Shown here: piece by piece, positions 6,661 through 56,650 of the stretch
How the letters are laid out: every line of letters begins with the position of its first letter
Numbering within the stretch: position 1 is the stretch's first letter
Assembly (NCBI GenBank): GCA_038893495.1
Contig: JAWARJ010000001.1
Coordinates: 1,353,824-1,417,823 of the forward strand
Direction of reading: 5' to 3'
DNA length: 64,000 nucleotides
From: Thermoproteus sp.
GTDB lineage: Archaea; Thermoproteota; Thermoprotei; Thermoproteales; Thermoproteaceae
Position numbers and translations under genes: made by a program
The notes under the pieces: generated by a model
What the model was told of the DNA's origin: nothing
The model's input: the letters and a program-made list of their open reading frames with translations, nothing else
The model's database searches: none

Positions 6661-7806
6661 GTGAGGCGTTATATCTTCGCCATAGGCCTCGAGAGGTTCC
6701 TCAGAAATCTCGCCACGGGATATCTGGCCGTGGCGATTCCGCTATACCTAAAGGAGTTGACCGGAAGCGCCTTCGCGGCCGGGCTTGCGGTGACGCTGGC
6801 CGGAGTCATCTCTCTGGGCTCTTCCATCCTCTACGCGGCTCTCGGCGACATAATAGGCCACGCCCGCGGCCTCGCCGTGAGCGAGACGGCCTTCGCGTCG
6901 GCGCTCCTGGCCATAATCGCAGTTAAGAATCCCTGGGCCGTGGGGCTTGCCTTGGGCCTCGGCGGGGTCGGCATGTTGGGGCCCGGCTCCACTAGGGGTA
7001 GCTTCGTCCCGTTGATTATGGCCCTCGTGAGGAAGCACACGAAAAACGCCGTGGAGAGGACGCAAGACCTCGGCCTGGTCAACGTGCTATCGACGGCTGG
7101 AGGCATCGTCGGCTCGCTCCTGGTGGCCGTCTTGGCCCTCCGCGAGGCGTCGCTCCTCTTCATTTTCTCCGTGTCGGCCGCCGCGGCCCTGATCCTCCTC
7201 GCCCTGGGGAGGTCCGAGGCCGTCAGGAAGGTGAACCCCTTCAAGGCGGTTGGGAGGAGGAGCGGCGCCGTATTTGCCTATTCCATGAGCCAACTGGTCG
7301 CAGGCGTGGGCGTAGGCCTCTCCAACTCTCTCCTCTCCCTATGGATGAACGCCTATTTGGGCCTCGGCGAGGCCGTAATAGGCTTTATATTCGCCCTCGG
7401 GAATGCCGCATTCTCCCTCTTTTCGCTCTTCGCCCACCTCTTCGTCAAGAGGCTCGGCCTAGTCAAGACCTCCGCCCTCAGCAGATTCGCCTCGGGCGCC
7501 CTCCTGGCCGTCATGCCGTTTCTACACAACTGGGCCGTCTTCGCGGCGGTATACGCGCTCTATAACGCCATGGTGGGCTTCGGCGGGACGGCCCGCTCCT
7601 CCTACATCTCCGGCGTAGCCGCAGAGGGAGGAGAGGCGACGACGCCAGCTATAGCGAGCATATCCATGAGGCTCGCCGCGACTCCCTCTGCCGCCGCAGC
7701 GGGGTACCTAATAGACGTAAGCCCGGCCCTCCTCATGCCCCTAGCTGGAGCCTTCGTCATAGCGGCCGGCTATATATTCCTCAAATACCTAAAGGAAGAA
7801 GAATAA
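6661..7806 (+). CDS. MFS transporter
   Basis: 381 residues with about 12 membrane helices and a cytoplasmic loop between helices 2 and 3 (ALGDIIGHARGLAVSE) of the major facilitator type. The central loop is basic (RKVNPFKAVGRRSG). The GTG start has a GAGG ribosome-binding site 5 nt upstream and an AATTTTTAC box about 30 nt upstream. The substrate cannot be inferred. It stands alone, divergent from mcm and convergent with the Cas4-like gene. Confidence 0.85.
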   Translation: MRRYIFAIGLERFLRNLATGYLAVAIPLYLKELTGSAFAAGLAVTLAGVISLGSSILYAALGDIIGHARGLAVSETAFASALLAIIAVKNPWAVGLALGLGGVGMLGPGSTRGSFVPLIMALVRKHTKNAVERTQDLGLVNVLSTAGGIVGSLLVAVLALREASLLFIFSVSAAAALILLALGRSEAVRKVNPFKAVGRRSGAVFAYSMSQLVAGVGVGLSNSLLSLWMNAYLGLGEAVIGFIFALGNAAFSLFSLFAHLFVKRLGLVKTSALSRFASGALLAVMPFLHNWAVFAAVYALYNAMVGFGGTARSSYISGVAAEGGEATTPAIASISMRLAATPSAAAAGYLIDVSPALLMPLAGAFVIAAGYIFLKYLKEEE

Positions 7807-7853
7807 ATATCCCCATCTTCTATATTATCGCCGCGACGCGCGGGGAGGGGCCG

Positions 7854-8687
7854 TCACGGCCGCTGTGAGCCGTCGCGACGACGCCGCGGGATATCTCCGA
7901 CGCATTCGCAGACCTCTTTATACCTACAGGAGGCGCAGGCGGGGCCAGGCCTACATTCGCCTCCAATCAGCGTTTTGTATTTCGGCGTGGGGTCCGCCGC
8001 CTCCTCTACGTATGAATATATGGCCTCGCCGGGCACATATATATGTAGCTTCACGCGCCCCCTCCTAAACGCCGCCGCGGCCACATCGCCCTCGACCAAC
8101 GCGAGCCTCTTGGCCCTCTCCCTATCCCTCGCGATTCTGAATAGGTACACGTGGTCGACGCCTATGCCAGCCACGGCGTAGAAGACGTAGTTGCCATACC
8201 TATGGCCCATCCCGACGTAGGGGTAGACCTCGGCGTATTTCACATAGGCCGCGGCCTCCCTCACAAGGCCCCTGGCGGCTGTAACCACGACCTTCCTGCT
8301 GGCCCTCCTGGCTGCCTCGAACTCCTCCTTGAGGCGGGGCAGAATCGGTGTGAGGTCCTCGGGGCCGACGTCCCTCCCTATGTGTAGAAGAGATTTGAAG
8401 GCCTCCGCCTCGCCTCTAGAGGCCCTTCTGGCCAGAAGGTCTACATGCCTCCCATCTGCGATGCCCAACATCACGGCATATTTGACGCGGTCCCTCAAGG
8501 CCCTCGCGAAGACCTCCACCTCCTCGTCGGCCGCCCTATACGCGGCGGCCCTCGGGCAGATCGTAGCCTCGGCGACGGCCGCCGACGATATGTAGGACAG
8601 GCCGTACTCCTCCTTCTCGAGAGCCAGAGCCCTCTCAAAGAACTTGGAGGTCCTCGGGAGCTCTCTATACAGCCTTTCTATCAACAC
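7854..8687 (-). CDS. Cas4/RecB-like Fe-S protein, possibly inactive nuclease
   Basis: 277 residues. Near the N-terminus is ATICPRAAAYR, resembling the first cluster cysteine of Cas4 (yCPR.a.y). Near the C-terminus is a cysteine group, CRPGPACASCRYKEVCEC. In between, GIGVDHVYLF followed by LALVEGDV resembles the PD-(D/E)XK core, but the lysine of ExK is replaced by Asp. The family link is inferred from the cysteine pattern, and activity is doubtful. No CRISPR array or other cas gene is present. The GTG start has a TATA box (8704-8712) inside the end of the upstream EamA gene. Confidence 0.55.
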   Translation of the reverse strand: MLIERLYRELPRTSKFFERALALEKEEYGLSYISSAAVAEATICPRAAAYRAADEEVEVFARALRDRVKYAVMLGIADGRHVDLLARRASRGEAEAFKSLLHIGRDVGPEDLTPILPRLKEEFEAARRASRKVVVTAARGLVREAAAYVKYAEVYPYVGMGHRYGNYVFYAVAGIGVDHVYLFRIARDRERAKRLALVEGDVAAAAFRRGRVKLHIYVPGEAIYSYVEEAADPTPKYKTLIGGECRPGPACASCRYKEVCECVGDIPRRRRDGSQRP

Positions 8688-8701
8688 GGAGGCCCGACCA
8701 C

Positions 8702-9526
8702 TCAGATATAAAAGGATATGGCTATGGCGGAGAGTATAAGGAGGGCCGCCCCATATTCGCGGAGAGCCGGCCTCTCCCTGCCCAAAACTCTAGATATCAA
8801 CTGGGAGGCTAGGGGGACCACGCCCAGCGCTATGACGGTAGGCCCCAGCCCGATCTCCACCGTGGAGTATGCGAACAACGCCGAGCCGCCTCCCAGATCC
8901 AAGACGGCTATAATCGGCAGGGCCGTCCGCCAGGTCCCTCTTACGGCCTGTCCGGCCCTCTTGGCCCCGCCAAATGCGGCCAATACGGGTAGCGCCGATG
9001 CGACGCGGGCGAAGGCTATCGAGACTGGACTCACCCCGCTTACCCCTGCGACCTTAACCGCGGCGTAGCCGGCGGACCAAGACAAGGCGGCCCCCAAGGC
9101 GTAGAGAACGCCGGCTAGACTGCCACGCCCGGCCCCCGCCGCGAGCAGATAGACCCCCAACACCACGAGGACGGCGGATATTAGGTAAGACGCCCTTAGG
9201 GGCTCGCCGAGGGGCACGGCCATGAACTGTTCTATAATTACATAGCTGTAGGCGGCGGGCACAGCCACCGCAACTCCGGCCGTCCCCAAGGCCTTTAAGT
9301 ACAGAGAGTCGCCGAGCGCTAAGGACAAGATGCCGCTCAACGCCGCATATAGAGCTCCCCGCCCCAACCCAAAATATATAGCCGGCGCCAAGAGGATCAG
9401 AGAGGTGTAGAGCATCCTCAAGAAGTTGAGCCTCAAGACGCCGATCTTCTCCACGTAGTCCCTATAGGCCACGGAGGCGTAGGCCCATATCAAGGCCGCG
9501 CCCAACGCCGGCAGTACGTCCTCCAT
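8702..9526 (-). CDS. EamA/DMT-family transporter
   Basis: 274 residues with ten predicted membrane helices arranged as two five-helix EamA repeats (about 1-135 and 140-274). DMT permeases of this size export or import small metabolites; the substrate is unknown. The start ATGGAGGACG is preceded by an A+T-rich stretch with a TATATC box. Only 14 nt separate it from the Cas4-like gene downstream, which nevertheless has its own TATA box. Confidence 0.85.
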   Translation of the reverse strand: MEDVLPALGAALIWAYASVAYRDYVEKIGVLRLNFLRMLYTSLILLAPAIYFGLGRGALYAALSGILSLALGDSLYLKALGTAGVAVAVPAAYSYVIIEQFMAVPLGEPLRASYLISAVLVVLGVYLLAAGAGRGSLAGVLYALGAALSWSAGYAAVKVAGVSGVSPVSIAFARVASALPVLAAFGGAKRAGQAVRGTWRTALPIIAVLDLGGGSALFAYSTVEIGLGPTVIALGVVPLASQLISRVLGRERPALREYGAALLILSAIAISFYI

Positions 9527-9535
9527 AACGCCAAA

Positions 9536-9665
9536 AAGGAGATATATTTTTAAAAATTATTTTTAACAAAATATAAATAAATAGAAATATACAACAAAAA
9601 TATTTTATATATAATATAGATGTTATTAATTATATGTGGATGAAATCGCTACGCAAAAAATAAAC
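9536..9665. other. Strongly AT-rich intergenic tract
   Basis: About 130 bp of nearly pure A and T (runs such as TATTTTATATATAATATAG) interrupt a GC-rich neighbourhood, between the divergent EamA and ribbon-helix-helix genes. It certainly holds both promoters: AAATATATC for the left gene and AAAAAATAAACG about 27 nt before the GTG at 9688. No open frame or clear repeat unit is seen. An easily melted DNA element is possible, but no origin-binding motif or cdc6 gene is visible nearby. Confidence 0.5.
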
Positions 9666-9687
9666 GCGGGTTTTCGTAGAGGCATAC

Positions 9688-9924
9688 GTGAAGAGGACGG
9701 TGCTGATCACAGTGAGGTTGCCCAAAGGGCTGTTGGACGGCTTGGAGGAGCTGGTGGAGCGGGGCCTCTACCCCAATAGGAGTGAGGCGGTGAGGGCCGC
9801 CATAGTGGACCTACTGGAGCGGCATAGGGACGGCCTACTCCAATTTGAGGGCCAACAGGACTACGGCCAGAATGCCGACGGCCAGAGCCGCGGCGGCCGA
9901 GCCCAAAGCCAGGAGGGCATATAG
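9688..9924 (+). CDS. Ribbon-helix-helix (CopG/MetJ-type) DNA-binding protein
   Basis: 78 residues. Residues 1-50 are a standard RHH fold: beta strand RTVLITVRLP, helix GLLDGLEELVERG, then YPNRSEAVRAAIVDLLERH. The last 28 residues (QFEGQQDYGQNADGQ onward) are low complexity and read antisense across the membrane anchor of the convergent surface-protein gene, so a shorter ancestral protein was probably extended. The leaderless GTG start has an AT-rich box 25-30 nt upstream. Such proteins are repressors or antitoxins; no toxin partner is adjacent. Confidence 0.75.
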   Translation: MKRTVLITVRLPKGLLDGLEELVERGLYPNRSEAVRAAIVDLLERHRDGLLQFEGQQDYGQNADGQSRGGRAQSQEGI

Positions 9925-11091
9925 GAGGCCTGTCGGGACCGAAGTCGATTTGGCGGTCGGCGTGACGCCAGCCGTCGTGGGTCTCGTGGTGGTCGTCGTC
10001 CTCGTGGCGGAGGCGGCGGGGGGCTTGGCGGTCGACGTGGTGGAGATCGGCGTGATGCTGGTGGCAGTCACAGGCGCCGTGAGGTTGAGGTATACTACCT
10101 TCCTCTCGCCGGGCCTCGCCGAGATCGAGGCGGTGGCAGTCAGATTGCGGTAGGCCGCCACCACCGTGTAGTTTCCGCTTAGCACCTCGACTCCGTTTAG
10201 AGGTCCCGTCGAGTTCAAAACCAACGCTCCGTCCAGATAGAGGAGGACGGTGGCATTCTTAAGTACGCCGCCCAATGGGTTTTGGGGATATATATAGAGG
10301 AGGGACGTGGGGACCTTCACGAGGTACGTCTCGTTGGAGCCGGGCGTAGCCGTTATGGTCTCATTGTAGAGGTAGACGCGGCCGCTCAAATTCGCCGAGA
10401 TGGACGCCACGTAGGTGCCGCCCAACACCTCGGCCTTGAGGGGCGAGGGGCCGGAGGCGATGGCCCGCCGGCCGGCTAGAAGCCGCACCGTGTAGTTTAC
10501 AGGCCTGCCGAGGGCTTCGTCGTACGCCTCAACGACAATGTAGGCCGTGGGCACTATTACCGGCAGGGTGTAGTTGTGGCCCGGTTGGGGCTTCGTGTAG
10601 TTGTAGAAGACGCCGTAGGGCGTATTGACGGCGGCCCCTATCTGCTTGCCTACGGCCAGCACTTCTACCTCCACGGAGCCGCGGCCAGACGCCAGAGTCA
10701 AGTTGTCGGGACCTAGGATCGAGATAGGCCAGTCTGCCTCGCGGCCAGAGGCCTGGTCTATCGCCACGGCCCTTATGAAGGCCGTGGGCATCACTATTTT
10801 CTGGCTGGTGGGGCCCTGGACATATATGGAGCTGTTGAAGGTGCCAGGCGGGCAATCCCTACAGCCGGGCACAAGGGGCACGTATATGACGAAAATATAC
10901 GCGCCGGGCGCGAGGTCGCCGTTGTAGATGCCACCCTGCACCACCGTCACGAGCTCGCCGTTGGGGCCGTATATCTCCATCATGGCGTTGTTAACCATGG
11001 CGCCCGTGGTGCTGTCCACCAACGTCACGACCACTTGTACCGCCAGCGCCAGGGCGGGGAGAAGAAGCAGTAAGAGCAATAAGACTCTCAT
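9835..11091 (-). CDS. Surface protein with signal peptide, beta-domain repeats, Thr-rich stalk and membrane anchor
   Basis: 418 residues. An N-terminal signal (MRVLLLLLLLLPALALA) is followed by about four related beta-sandwich units of 75-90 residues, each built on a 'DxxxGRxVxxxVxLLxG' theme (VDSTTGAMVNNAMMEI, IDQASGREADWPISIL, YDEALGRPVNYTVRLL). These resemble carboxypeptidase regulatory-like domains. A Ser/Thr/Pro stalk with runs such as TRTTTTTRPTT (about 345-385) and a final hydrophobic helix anchor it. Many N-x-S/T sites are present. It is presumably displayed outside the membrane; the function is unknown. Confidence 0.8.
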   Translation of the reverse strand: MRVLLLLLLLLPALALAVQVVVTLVDSTTGAMVNNAMMEIYGPNGELVTVVQGGIYNGDLAPGAYIFVIYVPLVPGCRDCPPGTFNSSIYVQGPTSQKIVMPTAFIRAVAIDQASGREADWPISILGPDNLTLASGRGSVEVEVLAVGKQIGAAVNTPYGVFYNYTKPQPGHNYTLPVIVPTAYIVVEAYDEALGRPVNYTVRLLAGRRAIASGPSPLKAEVLGGTYVASISANLSGRVYLYNETITATPGSNETYLVKVPTSLLYIYPQNPLGGVLKNATVLLYLDGALVLNSTGPLNGVEVLSGNYTVVAAYRNLTATASISARPGERKVVYLNLTAPVTATSITPISTTSTAKPPAASATRTTTTTRPTTAGVTPTAKSTSVPTGLLYALLALGSAAAALAVGILAVVLLALKLE

Positions 11092-11123
11092 GGAGCTAGA
11101 GAAATAGGTATATTTCTAGGTTT

Positions 11124-11597
11124 CTAGGCGTAGAGGGAGGTGCGGTCCGCCTTGGGGCGCCTGAAGGTCTCCGAGAAGGACATAATGACTAGAAGGCCAG
11201 CGTTCCTGACTCTGTAATACTCCTCTACGAACTTGTGTGCGTCAAGCCCGTCGACGAGGACTGGCTTGGAGATGTGGATGGCCTCGGGGACCTCGGCCTC
11301 GGGGGGCAGGAAGGCGAAGTCGACTCCCATCTGGAGGATAGCCCTCTTGAGGTCAAGGAGGAACCTCCTCCTATCCTCCTCCTTCATGGAGGCGAGGGCC
11401 GACTTGTGGTCTGGGTGGACGGCTATACCCATGGCGATCACGTAGAGGTTCGCGTCTTTAGGCCTGACTACCTCCACTACGGGGATGCCCGTCGGCGGGG
11501 CCACAGAAATGTGGAAAGGCTCGGGGGCGTTCGGCGGAATCGTCACGTTGAGGCCTAGAGATCTGACCCACCGCTCCACCTCCCTATCCAGATCCAT
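11124..11597 (-). CDS. DUF2299-like conserved archaeal protein
   Basis: 157 residues from the ATG at 11597. The longer frame upstream runs into the region before the tRNA half and adds a Cys/His-rich stretch unlikely to be translated. The sequence (EVERWVRSLGLNVTIPPNA..PFHISVAPPTG) resembles the archaeal DUF2299 family of unknown function, an alpha-beta fold reminiscent of a type III secretion chaperone. That family assignment is from memory of the pattern. A CTTTATATG box lies about 25 nt upstream of the ATG. Confidence 0.65.
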   Translation of the reverse strand: MDLDREVERWVRSLGLNVTIPPNAPEPFHISVAPPTGIPVVEVVRPKDANLYVIAMGIAVHPDHKSALASMKEEDRRRFLLDLKRAILQMGVDFAFLPPEAEVPEAIHISKPVLVDGLDAHKFVEEYYRVRNAGLLVIMSFSETFRRPKADRTSLYA

Positions 11598-11636
11598 ATG
11601 TCCCGAAGAGGCCCAACATATAAAGTTGGCGCAATG

Positions 11637-11644
11637 TATTAATA
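11637..11644 (+). promoter_or_regulatory. TATA box of the tRNA-Ser 5' half
   Basis: TATTAATA is centred 26 nt upstream of the first base of the tRNA 5' half at 11666. That is the expected archaeal spacing between a TATA element and the transcription start. Confidence 0.55.
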
Positions 11645-11665
11645 GCCGCATGAATTAATCTACGA

Positions 11666-11703
11666 GCCCGGGTGGCCGAGCTGGTCCAAGGGGCGTGCCG
11701 GCC
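11666..11703 (+). tRNA. 5' half of a split (trans-spliced) tRNA-Ser(GCU)
   Basis: The 5' exon is 11666-11688: acceptor strand GCCCGGG (11666-11672), TG, D-stem GCC and a D-loop containing GAGCTGGTCC. No anticodon or T-arm follows. Instead 11690-11703 (GGGGCGTGCCGGCC) is exactly complementary, with one G-U, to 55742-55729 on the minus strand. Between exon and helix lies the bulge CAA (11687-11689), preceded by GGTC (11683-11686), which pairs with GACT (55728-55725). A second bulge, CGA (55724-55722), and the outer helix GCT/GGC complete a canonical 3-nt/4-bp/3-nt bulge-helix-bulge. Cutting between bulge bases 2 and 3 joins 11688 to 55722 and restores the D-stem GCC/GGC. Confidence 0.85.
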
Positions 11704-55359: not shown

Positions 55360-55542
55360 CTATCCCTTCCTGCCTGCCACCGCCGCCAGTATTGAGGCAT
55401 GTATGTCCATGAGGGTCTTGTTCACCCCCATGAACCACCGTCCTTGAACGCCATAATCTATTAGAGCTGGGCATGTGGAAAGAGATGCCTCGAGACTTTT
55501 TATGAAAGGGCATGTCTCTAACCGACACGCCGGAGCCCCCAT
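55360..55542 (-). CDS. Possible small protein
   Basis: A 60-residue frame with three cysteines (PACRLETCPFIKSLEASLSTC) and a helical, fairly ordinary C-terminus (VNKTLMDIHASILAAVAG). It fills the otherwise gene-free gap 55292-55657. Codon use is less GC-biased than the neighbours, and no strong TATA box lies at 25 nt, though an AT-rich box in the repeat region at 55617-55624 could serve with a 50-nt leader. The case is weak. Confidence 0.25.
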   Translation of the reverse strand: MGAPACRLETCPFIKSLEASLSTCPALIDYGVQGRWFMGVNKTLMDIHASILAAVAGRKG

Positions 55543-55608: not shown

Positions 55609-55655
55609 CGCTTTACATATTTAAGTAAAGCGGAATAAAGACTGTAGTAAAGCGG
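55609..55655. repeat. Three GTAAAGCG units (one inverted, two direct)
   Basis: CGCTTTAC (55609-55616) and GTAAAGCG (55625-55632) form a perfect 8-bp inverted repeat around ATATTTAA. GTAAAGCGG occurs again at 55647-55655, 22 bp from the first direct copy, i.e. two helical turns. The set adjoins the 3' end of the split-tRNA half. It could be an operator around the AT-rich box or part of an old integration site. Confidence 0.5.
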
Positions 55656-55657
55656 GG

Positions 55658-55742
55658 TGGCGCCCGGGGTGGGATTTGAACCCACGCCCCCTTTCGGGGA
55701 CGGACTTAGCAGGCCCGCGCCTCGAGTCGGGACGTGCCGGCC
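55658..55742 (-). tRNA. 3' half of a split (trans-spliced) tRNA-Ser(GCU)
   Basis: Read on the minus strand from 55742: a 14-nt leader GGCCGGCACGTCCC that pairs with the 5' half, GACT, the bulge CGA, then the 3' exon 55722-55661. The exon holds AGGCG (end of the D-arm), anticodon stem CGGGC/GTCCG around loop CTGCTAA (anticodon GCT), variable arm CCCC-GAAA-GGGG, T-arm GTGGG-TTCAAAT-CCCAC, acceptor CCCGGGC and discriminator G. CCA is encoded at 55660-55658. CCCGGGC pairs perfectly with GCCCGGG at 11666. Joined exons make 85 nt plus CCA. A TATA-like CTTAAAAAT (55769-55761) lies upstream. Confidence 0.88.
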
Positions 55743-55760: not shown

Positions 55761-55769
55761 ATTTTTAAG
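55761..55769 (-). promoter_or_regulatory. TATA box of the tRNA-Ser 3' half
   Basis: CTTAAAAAT on the minus strand lies 19-27 nt upstream of 55742, the first base of the leader helix, so this half has its own promoter and no 5' tRNA part precedes it. Confidence 0.55.
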
Positions 55770-55787
55770 CTTAACGTCGGCCTTGCG

Positions 55788-56194
55788 TTAGGGGTCGAGG
55801 CCCCTTTTCTTCAGCTCCTCATATACCTTAAGCCCGATTTTGGCGAGCTCCCTATACTCCCTGTTCCTTACAATCCTCGCAACTACGTTCGGGTCGACCA
55901 CGCCGTATTGATGCACCGCGATGTTCCTAAACCTGACCGCCGCCCTATACCTATTCAGCTCGTCGTCGCTCAGAAGGCCCGCGGCCCTCAGCTTGACGCC
56001 CGCGTCTATATAGCCCTCTACGTTAAAGCCGAGCGCCGAGGCGGCCCTCACCGCTATAAAGCGATTGGGCCTGTACTTGAAGCAGGTGGACCGCCGCGCT
56101 GAATTTATAGACATCGCCCAGCTCCTCCGGCCTGAGCCCGTCCAGTAGCCCCAAATACTCGAAACAATTTCACCAATCTGCCTATTGCCCCCAT
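55788..56194 (-). pseudogene. HepT-like HEPN toxin gene, frameshifted
   Basis: Read in three frames this gives a normal HepT-sized protein. It starts MGAIGRLVKLF at 56194, shifts near 56172-56168 into EYLGLLDGLRPEELGDVYKF and SAAVHLLQVQAQ, then shifts near 56070-56080 into FIAVRAASALGFNVEGYIDAG. The HEPN ribonuclease motif RNIAVHQYG (R-x4-H-x-Y) is intact in the last frame. Its start overlaps the end of the MNT gene by 13 nt, the usual operon layout. Two frameshifts indicate decay unless they are assembly errors. Confidence 0.65.
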
Positions 56195-56585
56195 CTGCCC
56201 ATCACCGCCTCGATCTGCGTGTTGAACAAGTCGAGCCTCTCGGCGTCTATCATGAAGTCGAGGCAGGGCTTCAGTATCCTGAGCTTCAAGTCGAGGTACT
56301 CCCCCATGTCCCTCGCGTAGAGCAACTTCCCTCTGCCCAAGACGTCCACTATCAACGTACAGGGGATCAGCTCGTAGCCGTTGAGGACTAGGAGGTCCAC
56401 CTCGTCATCTCTAACCCCCCCAAAAACCTCGCGAGAGCATACTGTAAGTCTATGTCGGCCTCCGGGTCCTCCAACATCGCGGCCACGTCCCAATCGCCCT
56501 TGACCGCGCCGCCCCACGCCCTAGAGCCGTAGAGCACGGCGAATATCACGCCGTATCTGCCCCAGGGGAAGTCTCTCAGATCCAT
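56182..56585 (-). pseudogene. MNT nucleotidyltransferase gene, frameshifted at a G7 tract
   Basis: The first frame (ATG 56585) encodes FAVLYGSRAWGGAVKGDWDV with the GSxxx...DxD site and continues to YALARFLGG. At a tract of seven C on the plus strand (56415-56421, G7 on the coding strand) the reading passes into the next frame, VRDDEVDLLVLNGYELIP, down to the stop at 56182. A one-base change in the tract restores a full-length antitoxin. It may be a pseudogene, a slippery phase-variable site or a sequencing error. Confidence 0.65.
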
Positions 56586-56650
56586 AAATACGAGGGAGGC
56601 CGAATTTATAAGGATCCGCCGGCGCAAGGGATTGGGGCTTTAGGATAAAT

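Follow-up and report, generated by a model that had tools for sequence, protein, structure and literature searches.

A split class II tRNA-Ser(GCU) gene and six further split tRNAs predicted in a Thermoproteus genome

The 3' half of a serine tRNA

The stretch of DNA analyzed here (the window, 64,000 nucleotides) comes from a Thermoproteus sp. genome of 1,995,394 bases, designated G000. Its minus strand carries the 3' part of a tRNA-Ser(GCU), which consists of the following elements:

55742..55658, minus strand: locus of the 3' half, class II, with CCA and a 5' leader
55734..55742, minus strand: leader core GGCCGGCAC, the predicted 5' end of the transcript, placed by the reverse complement of the trailer and by promoter spacing
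55722..55733, minus strand: spacer GTCCCGACTCGA between the leader core and the predicted 3' splice site, placed by fold and junction scan
55658..55721, minus strand: 3' exon of tRNA-Ser(GCU), whose joined product ARAGORN calls tRNA-Ser(gct)
55710-55708, 55700-55686 and 55660-55658, minus strand: anticodon GCT, long variable arm and CCA

Read 5' to 3', the half is GGCCGGCAC-GTCCCGACTCGA-GGCGCGGGCCTGCTAAGTCCG-TCCCCGAAAGGGGGC-GTGGGTTCAAATCCCAC-CCCGGGC-G-CCA. The tRNA portion extends from the D-stem 3' strand to the CCA and includes the anticodon GCT, the long variable arm, the T arm, and G73. Three characters place it in class II: the long variable arm TCCCCGAAAGGGGGC, the serine anticodon, and similarity to class II orthologues. 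An earlier sequence-only reading had recognized a tRNA 3' half with an encoded CCA, and this sequence is indeed present on the minus strand, with a matching 5' half at window 11666-11703. The anticodon arm, as that reading proposed, lies wholly inside the 3' piece, where both the anticodon stem and the loop with GCT can be read. Its expectation that automatic annotation misses the half holds for the tools used, because ARAGORN reports no tRNA in the window and Rfam reports none there at gathering score; at a loose threshold the tRNA model RF00005 scores the 3' half at 21.9 bits, below the cut-off of 29.

Two features flank the 3' half:

55609..55632, minus strand: downstream hairpin CGCTTTAC..GTAAAGCG, shared with regions 3' of Glu and Gln tRNAs
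55788-56639, minus strand: HepT-like gene lacking its N-terminal part, with possible antitoxin-partner fragments upstream

The hairpin also follows tRNAs at G000:938298, 1468045, 1599912, and 802416. The GTAAAGCG repeats had been taken to fit a site once attacked by integrating elements, from which splitting might offer protection, but they are not specific to a wrecked site: that hairpin also stands downstream of Glu and Gln tRNAs that are intact. The decayed toxin-antitoxin genes said to lie beside the half are borne out in part: the HepT-like match covers only profile positions 47-114 of 120, and the neighboring fragments have no Pfam match. Among the 40 window open reading frames scanned with Pfam (of 132 listed at >=90 aa), there is no integrase or transposase. 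Before a diphthamide-synthesis gene, window positions 55366-55433 repeat the C terminus of a coiled-coil-like repeat protein that is found at three further places (G000:764288, 1992460, and 503228).

A matching 5' half and its complementary trailer

The 5' half was sought across the whole genome with a pattern that combined the expected acceptor strand with the beginning of the D arm and a portion of the leader complement. The pattern has a single match (G000:1365489), and it lies in the window:

11666..11703, plus strand: 5'-half locus, sequence GCCCGGGTGGCCGAGCTGGTCCAAGGGGCGTGCCGGCC
11666..11691, plus strand: 5' exon of tRNA-Ser(GCU), comprising the acceptor strand GCCCGGG, U8G9, the D-stem 5' strand, and the D-loop
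11690..11703, plus strand: complementary trailer GGGGCGTGCCGGCC, whose first bases overlap the ambiguous end of the exon

The 5' exon also aligns, by eye, with intact orthologues. The two halves lie about 44 kb apart on the same contig and on opposite strands; these are separate loci beyond the reach of one transcript, and because of the opposite strands a single transcript holding both is impossible. Across the halves, all seven acceptor-stem pairs are complementary. The trailer and leader form a helix of 14 consecutive pairs, one of them G-U, and the GTCCC of the spacer GTCCCGACTCGA lengthens this helix. Only 7 of 20,000 random pairs of 30-nt segments from the window reach 14 pairs, although six trailer bases were part of the search pattern and thus only the pairs beyond those six count as independent.

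When the exons are joined, ARAGORN calls tRNA-Ser(gct); neither half alone is called. Over 86 bases, the joined sequence is 97% identical to the intact gene of one relative (G002) and 94% identical to that of another (G004). The two exons span the whole tRNA, and no middle transcript of the kind found in tri-split tRNAs is needed.

A single gene with a compensatory change

The motif CTGCTAAGNCCGTCCCC occurs once in the genome. A whole-genome scan for T arms gives 46 matches: 44 in tRNAs, one non-tRNA (1667975), and one displaced fragment (1477750). After the latter two were dropped and Arg(CCG) and Pro(TGG), whose T arms carry introns, were added, the tRNA set again comprises 46 members, 39 contiguous and 7 split. 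With anticodons read by eye, one of these has GCU; the remaining three serine tRNAs have GGA, TGA, and CGA. Since neither the motif search nor the T-arm scan found a contiguous Ser(GCU) gene in the genome, the split gene is predicted to be the only one that reads AGU and AGC, and its joined exons make a complete tRNA with no contiguous duplicate.

The acceptor stem carries a further signature. In intact orthologues its strands are GCCGGGG...CCCCGGC, whereas in the split gene they are GCCCGGG...CCCGGGC. Pair 4:69 has thus gone from G:C in the intact relatives to C:G, a compensatory double change across two loci on opposite strands.

Predicted promoters of the two halves

Promoter-like sites were scored with a matrix derived from the genome's own intact tRNA genes, 29 in all (the 30 best tRNA loci less one partial match, L042). 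In 28 of the 29 the promoter ends 19-23 nt ahead of the tRNA; the single outlier is at 39. Each half has a separate predicted promoter:

55761..55778, minus strand: predicted 3'-half promoter GACGTTAAGCTTAAAAAT, matrix score 13.8, ending 18 nt before the leader (GGCCGG)
11628..11645, plus strand: predicted 5'-half promoter GGCGCAATGTATTAATAG, matrix score 11.1, ending 20 nt before the tRNA 5' end

The 3'-half score is equalled or beaten at 9 of 127,966 window positions, and in leave-one-out scoring at least 12 of the 29 intact genes fall below it; a chance origin of this site is unlikely. The 5'-half promoter ranks among the weaker ones (48 of 127,966 positions equal or beat it, and in leave-one-out at least 6 of the 29 intact genes are weaker still). 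The claim that the 3' half has a promoter of its own thus gains support from both the matrix score and a spacing near that of intact tRNAs. The leader had been placed about 25 nt after the center of CTTAAAAAT; it does stand at the expected distance from the promoter, but the interval measures 23 nt rather than 25.

The splice junction

The bases AGG are common to both Ser halves, and cuts from 21/22 to 24/25 yield an identical product. Because AGG is shared, the exon end is ambiguous by up to 4 nt and the cut cannot be placed exactly. A cut at 22/23 gives an exon helix GGTCC/GGGCC with 5 of 5 pairs, a 5' bulge AA|G, and a central helix with 3 of 4 pairs, while the 3' side is enlarged. The three remaining positions leave exon helices of 1/5, 2/5, and 1/5 pairs. 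None of the four fully fits the canonical hBHBh' form of the bulge-helix-bulge, the 22/23 cut failing by its central-helix mismatch and its enlarged 3' side. The junction is best described as a predicted relaxed bulge-helix-bulge with its best fit at 22/23. The exon start had been assigned to the D-loop instead of the anticodon; it does lie outside the anticodon, but at the border of D-loop and D-stem (22-25) and not deep in the loop. According to the accessible text of PMC4731332, Thermoproteus tenax, an organism with 46 tRNAs and 48 introns in them, has a splicing endonuclease of the family whose recognition is the most relaxed. On a suggestion from the same paper, C/D box sRNAs were sought near the halves, and a simple pattern found none within about 1 kb.

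Six further predicted split tRNAs

Outside the window, six other tRNAs of the genome appear to be split: Val GAC, CAC, and UAC, Gly CCC, Arg UCG, and a CAU tRNA. Their halves are located as follows:

G000:458942 and 1810358, minus strand: Val 5' halves
G000:460297, plus strand: CAU 5' half
G000:486294, plus strand: Arg 5' half
G000:554601, plus strand: Gly 5' half
G000:1810166, minus strand: Val(GAC) 3' half
G000:455705, minus strand: Val(CAC) 3' half
G000:1044622, minus strand: Val(UAC) 3' half
G000:461594, plus strand: CAU 3' half
G000:487879, plus strand: Arg(UCG) 3' half
G000:1812321, plus strand: Gly(CCC) 3' half

The joined products are called as Gly(ccc), Val(gac), Val(cac), Val(tac), Arg(tcg), and Met(cat). 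Gly(CCC), Arg(UCG), and the CAU tRNA each have promoter-like sites and complementary tails. The longest trailer/leader runs are 16, 13, and 14 for Val, 13 for Gly, 12 for CAU, and 9 for Arg; the like-for-like figure for Ser, without the shared exon bases, is 12. The promoter in all seven split tRNAs ends 18-21 nt ahead of the first paired leader base, so that, as a predicted general rule in this genome, the 3'-half RNA would open directly with the clamp strand. The earlier proposal that the pairing strand of the Ser 3' half is the very 5' end of its transcript is likewise supported by the matching 5' half and by the promoter spacing in the six further 3' halves.

In all three tRNA-Val genes the split appears to fall at 25/26; the leaders are nearly identical, and there are two 5' halves that seem interchangeable (L240, L191, L174, L228). 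The Val(UAC) 3' half carries an anticodon-loop intron as well, and the two Val(GAC) halves are adjacent. In Thermoproteus sp. UBA157 (L248), Val(GAC) is contiguous, with a short insert, AGAAGCAGTTCCCTGAG, at the position of the split. The ends of this insert, compared by eye and without a statistic, resemble the start of the Val trailer (AGAAAGC) and the end of the leader (TTCCCGAAG). The insert supports a Val split that would have arisen by the opening of an intron.

Other tRNA-like remnants were also seen. An orphan Arg-like 5' tRNA part lies at G000:1094936(+), and a degenerate tRNA copy with the upstream region of tRNA-Arg(TCT) lies at G000:119472(+) (L207 and L184 for the two loci). In G004, Glu- and Asp-like tRNAs at 590853 and 591082 (in L100) seem to have a long insert between the acceptor 5' strand and the D arm. 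A tRNA-Gln 3' fragment with the downstream hairpin (G000:1477750) lies about 10 kb from tRNA-Gln(TTG) at G000:1468045 (L167, L233), and the pair resembles the two ends of an integrated element.

Distribution among relatives and synteny

The pattern AGGCGCGGGCCTGCTA has one match in each of 17 of the 19 family genomes. Ser(GCU) is contiguous through the D arm in 16 of these 17 and split only in G000; the two genomes without a match (G001 and G018) are 73-74% complete and uninformative. An exact-pattern search for relatives in genome contigs gave no match. Intact orthologues exist within the genus, and on the sampled tree the predicted split is recent. Synteny in related Thermoproteales, proposed as a means of dating the split, places it no more finely than after divergence from the other sampled Thermoproteaceae. 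An intron in the D arm, the possible forerunner of the Ser split, is present in 0 of the 16 intact family genes; six of the 16 have an intron near the anticodon.

Among 13 relatives compared (11 plus G002 and G004), only G004 has a gene block near its intact Ser gene that is shared with G000. The block corresponds to window 6661-11651, adjoins the 5' half, is inverted, and lies about 5 kb from the G004 tRNA. The immediate neighbors of the G004 gene, which we take to be RadA-like and HerA-like, map to 771 kb and 718 kb of G000, some 590 kb or more away. In G004 the diphthamide-synthesis gene that neighbors the 3' half maps to 90 kb, at a great distance from that genome's Ser tRNA. A simple inversion ending inside the tRNA was considered and finds no support in the synteny: the G004 neighbors are dispersed and only the one block is shared. 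Because only the 5' side shares some gene neighbors with the intact locus of a relative whose genome is complete, the 3' half is tentatively the likelier mover, and the 5' half may mark the old locus.

A split, trans-spliced gene and the alternatives

With high confidence, we interpret Ser(GCU) as a split, trans-spliced class II tRNA gene, and one that is very probably functional. The halves, their complementarity, the promoter-like sites, the lack of a contiguous copy, and the compensatory change are read from sequence; transcription, annealing, cleavage, and ligation are predicted from known split-tRNA biology. On that model, the two halves would be transcribed separately and the transcripts would anneal by their complementary trailer and leader. 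The tRNA splicing endonuclease would then cut the relaxed bulge-helix-bulge at about 22/23, at the D-loop/D-stem border, removing trailer and leader, and a tRNA ligase would join the exons into tRNA-Ser(GCU), the predicted only decoder of AGU and AGC.

A broader reading, plausible though somewhat short of an even chance, is that tRNA splitting is actively under way in this lineage, with 7 of 46 tRNAs trans-spliced (including all Val and one class II Ser). Small introns would have opened in the hairpin loop, their stems lengthening into clamps, and the Ser 3' part would have been relocated together with a tRNA 3'-flank element. If so, that no class II tRNA was known to be split would reflect chance in sampling and would not point to a late origin of the class.

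One version of the split-gene explanation adds a cause: a tRNA-targeting mobile element with the CGCTTTAC/GTAAAGCG hairpin moved the 3' part, which then captured a promoter. The hairpin shared by Glu and Gln tRNA 3' flanks and the displaced Gln 3' fragment is in keeping with this, as is the adjoining truncated HepT gene; yet no integrase was found nearby, the hairpin may be a plain tRNA terminator, and it is absent from the downstream stretches read of five of the six other 3' halves and from the short stretch after the sixth, Val UAC. This cause is improbable.

Far less probable is that the 3' piece is an integration leftover, an attR-like tRNA fragment whose real gene lies elsewhere. Such a fragment is known in this genome, the tRNA-Gln 3' end at G000:1477750, and the hairpin downstream of it also follows the Ser 3' half. 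However, the motif search and the T-arm scan show no other Ser(GCU) gene to serve as the intact copy of an att site, and the Pfam-scanned frames hold no integrase or transposase. The piece also has a promoter-like site at the distance expected, its leader pairs with a distinct 5' half, and its acceptor stem shows a compensatory change. Least probable of all is a single gene interrupted by a very long intron, or a contiguous gene of which part was inverted through misassembly: the halves do share a contig, 44 kb apart, amid scrambled synteny, but opposite strands preclude a common transcript, both halves have novel complementary tails and separate promoter-like sites, and six other tRNAs elsewhere in the genome are laid out in the same way.

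Comparison with known systems

According to a 2015 review (PMC4390854, accessible text), split tRNAs of class II (Leu, Ser) were not known, a point that the review uses to support a late origin of that class. The predicted Ser(GCU) gene is a counter-example to this. The literature searched, outside subscription papers and databases such as GtRNAdb, describes no Ser or Leu tRNA as split and no split tRNA from Thermoproteus. Because a recent split has intact orthologues in the same genus, models of origin (opened intron, rearrangement, mobile element) become testable. One species of the genus, T. tenax, is in culture, and its splicing endonuclease has been produced and assayed (PMC4731332).

The permuted circular SRP RNA of T. 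tenax and T. uzoniensis, which belong to the same genus as the nearest relatives, is a rearrangement repaired by the tRNA splicing endonuclease at a relaxed bulge-helix-bulge, as is predicted for the Ser gene. Unlike the Ser halves, it is one transcript that is circularized, and no split tRNA is reported in the accessible text of that paper (PMC4731332). Nanoarchaeum equitans also has separate halves and a half common to two isoacceptors (Glu), together with relaxed bulge-helix-bulge motifs of the kind predicted here, but its genome is that of a reduced parasite, with six split tRNAs and no Ser or Leu among them in the accessible accounts (PMC4390854, PMC3218864).

In the Desulfurococcales, the split Asp GUC and Lys CUU genes (Chan 2011, PMC3218864) resemble the present case as recent, independent splits with halves near each other. 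In Thermosphaera aggregans the halves lie on opposite strands and synteny ends inside the tRNA, and in Aeropyrum pernix the Asp halves are adjacent, like the Val(GAC) halves here. As far as the accessible text of that study goes, these differ in being class I tRNAs with canonical bulge-helix-bulge motifs, one per genome, and junctions at 37/38 or 30/31.

A further close parallel is Caldivirga maquilingensis, also of the Thermoproteales, whose split and tri-split tRNAs were described by Fujishima 2009 (via the accessible text of PMC4090602, PMC4390854, and PMC4033280). Like the present genome, it belongs to a free-living member of that order, with complementary leaders and a 5' half shared by isoacceptors, in its case Ala CGC and UGC. 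Its junctions are at 25/26, 29/30, and 37/38, and its six split or tri-split tRNAs (Gly, Glu, Ala) include none of class II in those accounts. The seven predicted here exceed the six reported for Caldivirga and for Nanoarchaeum, and they include all three Val tRNAs and a Ser tRNA with its junction near 22/23.
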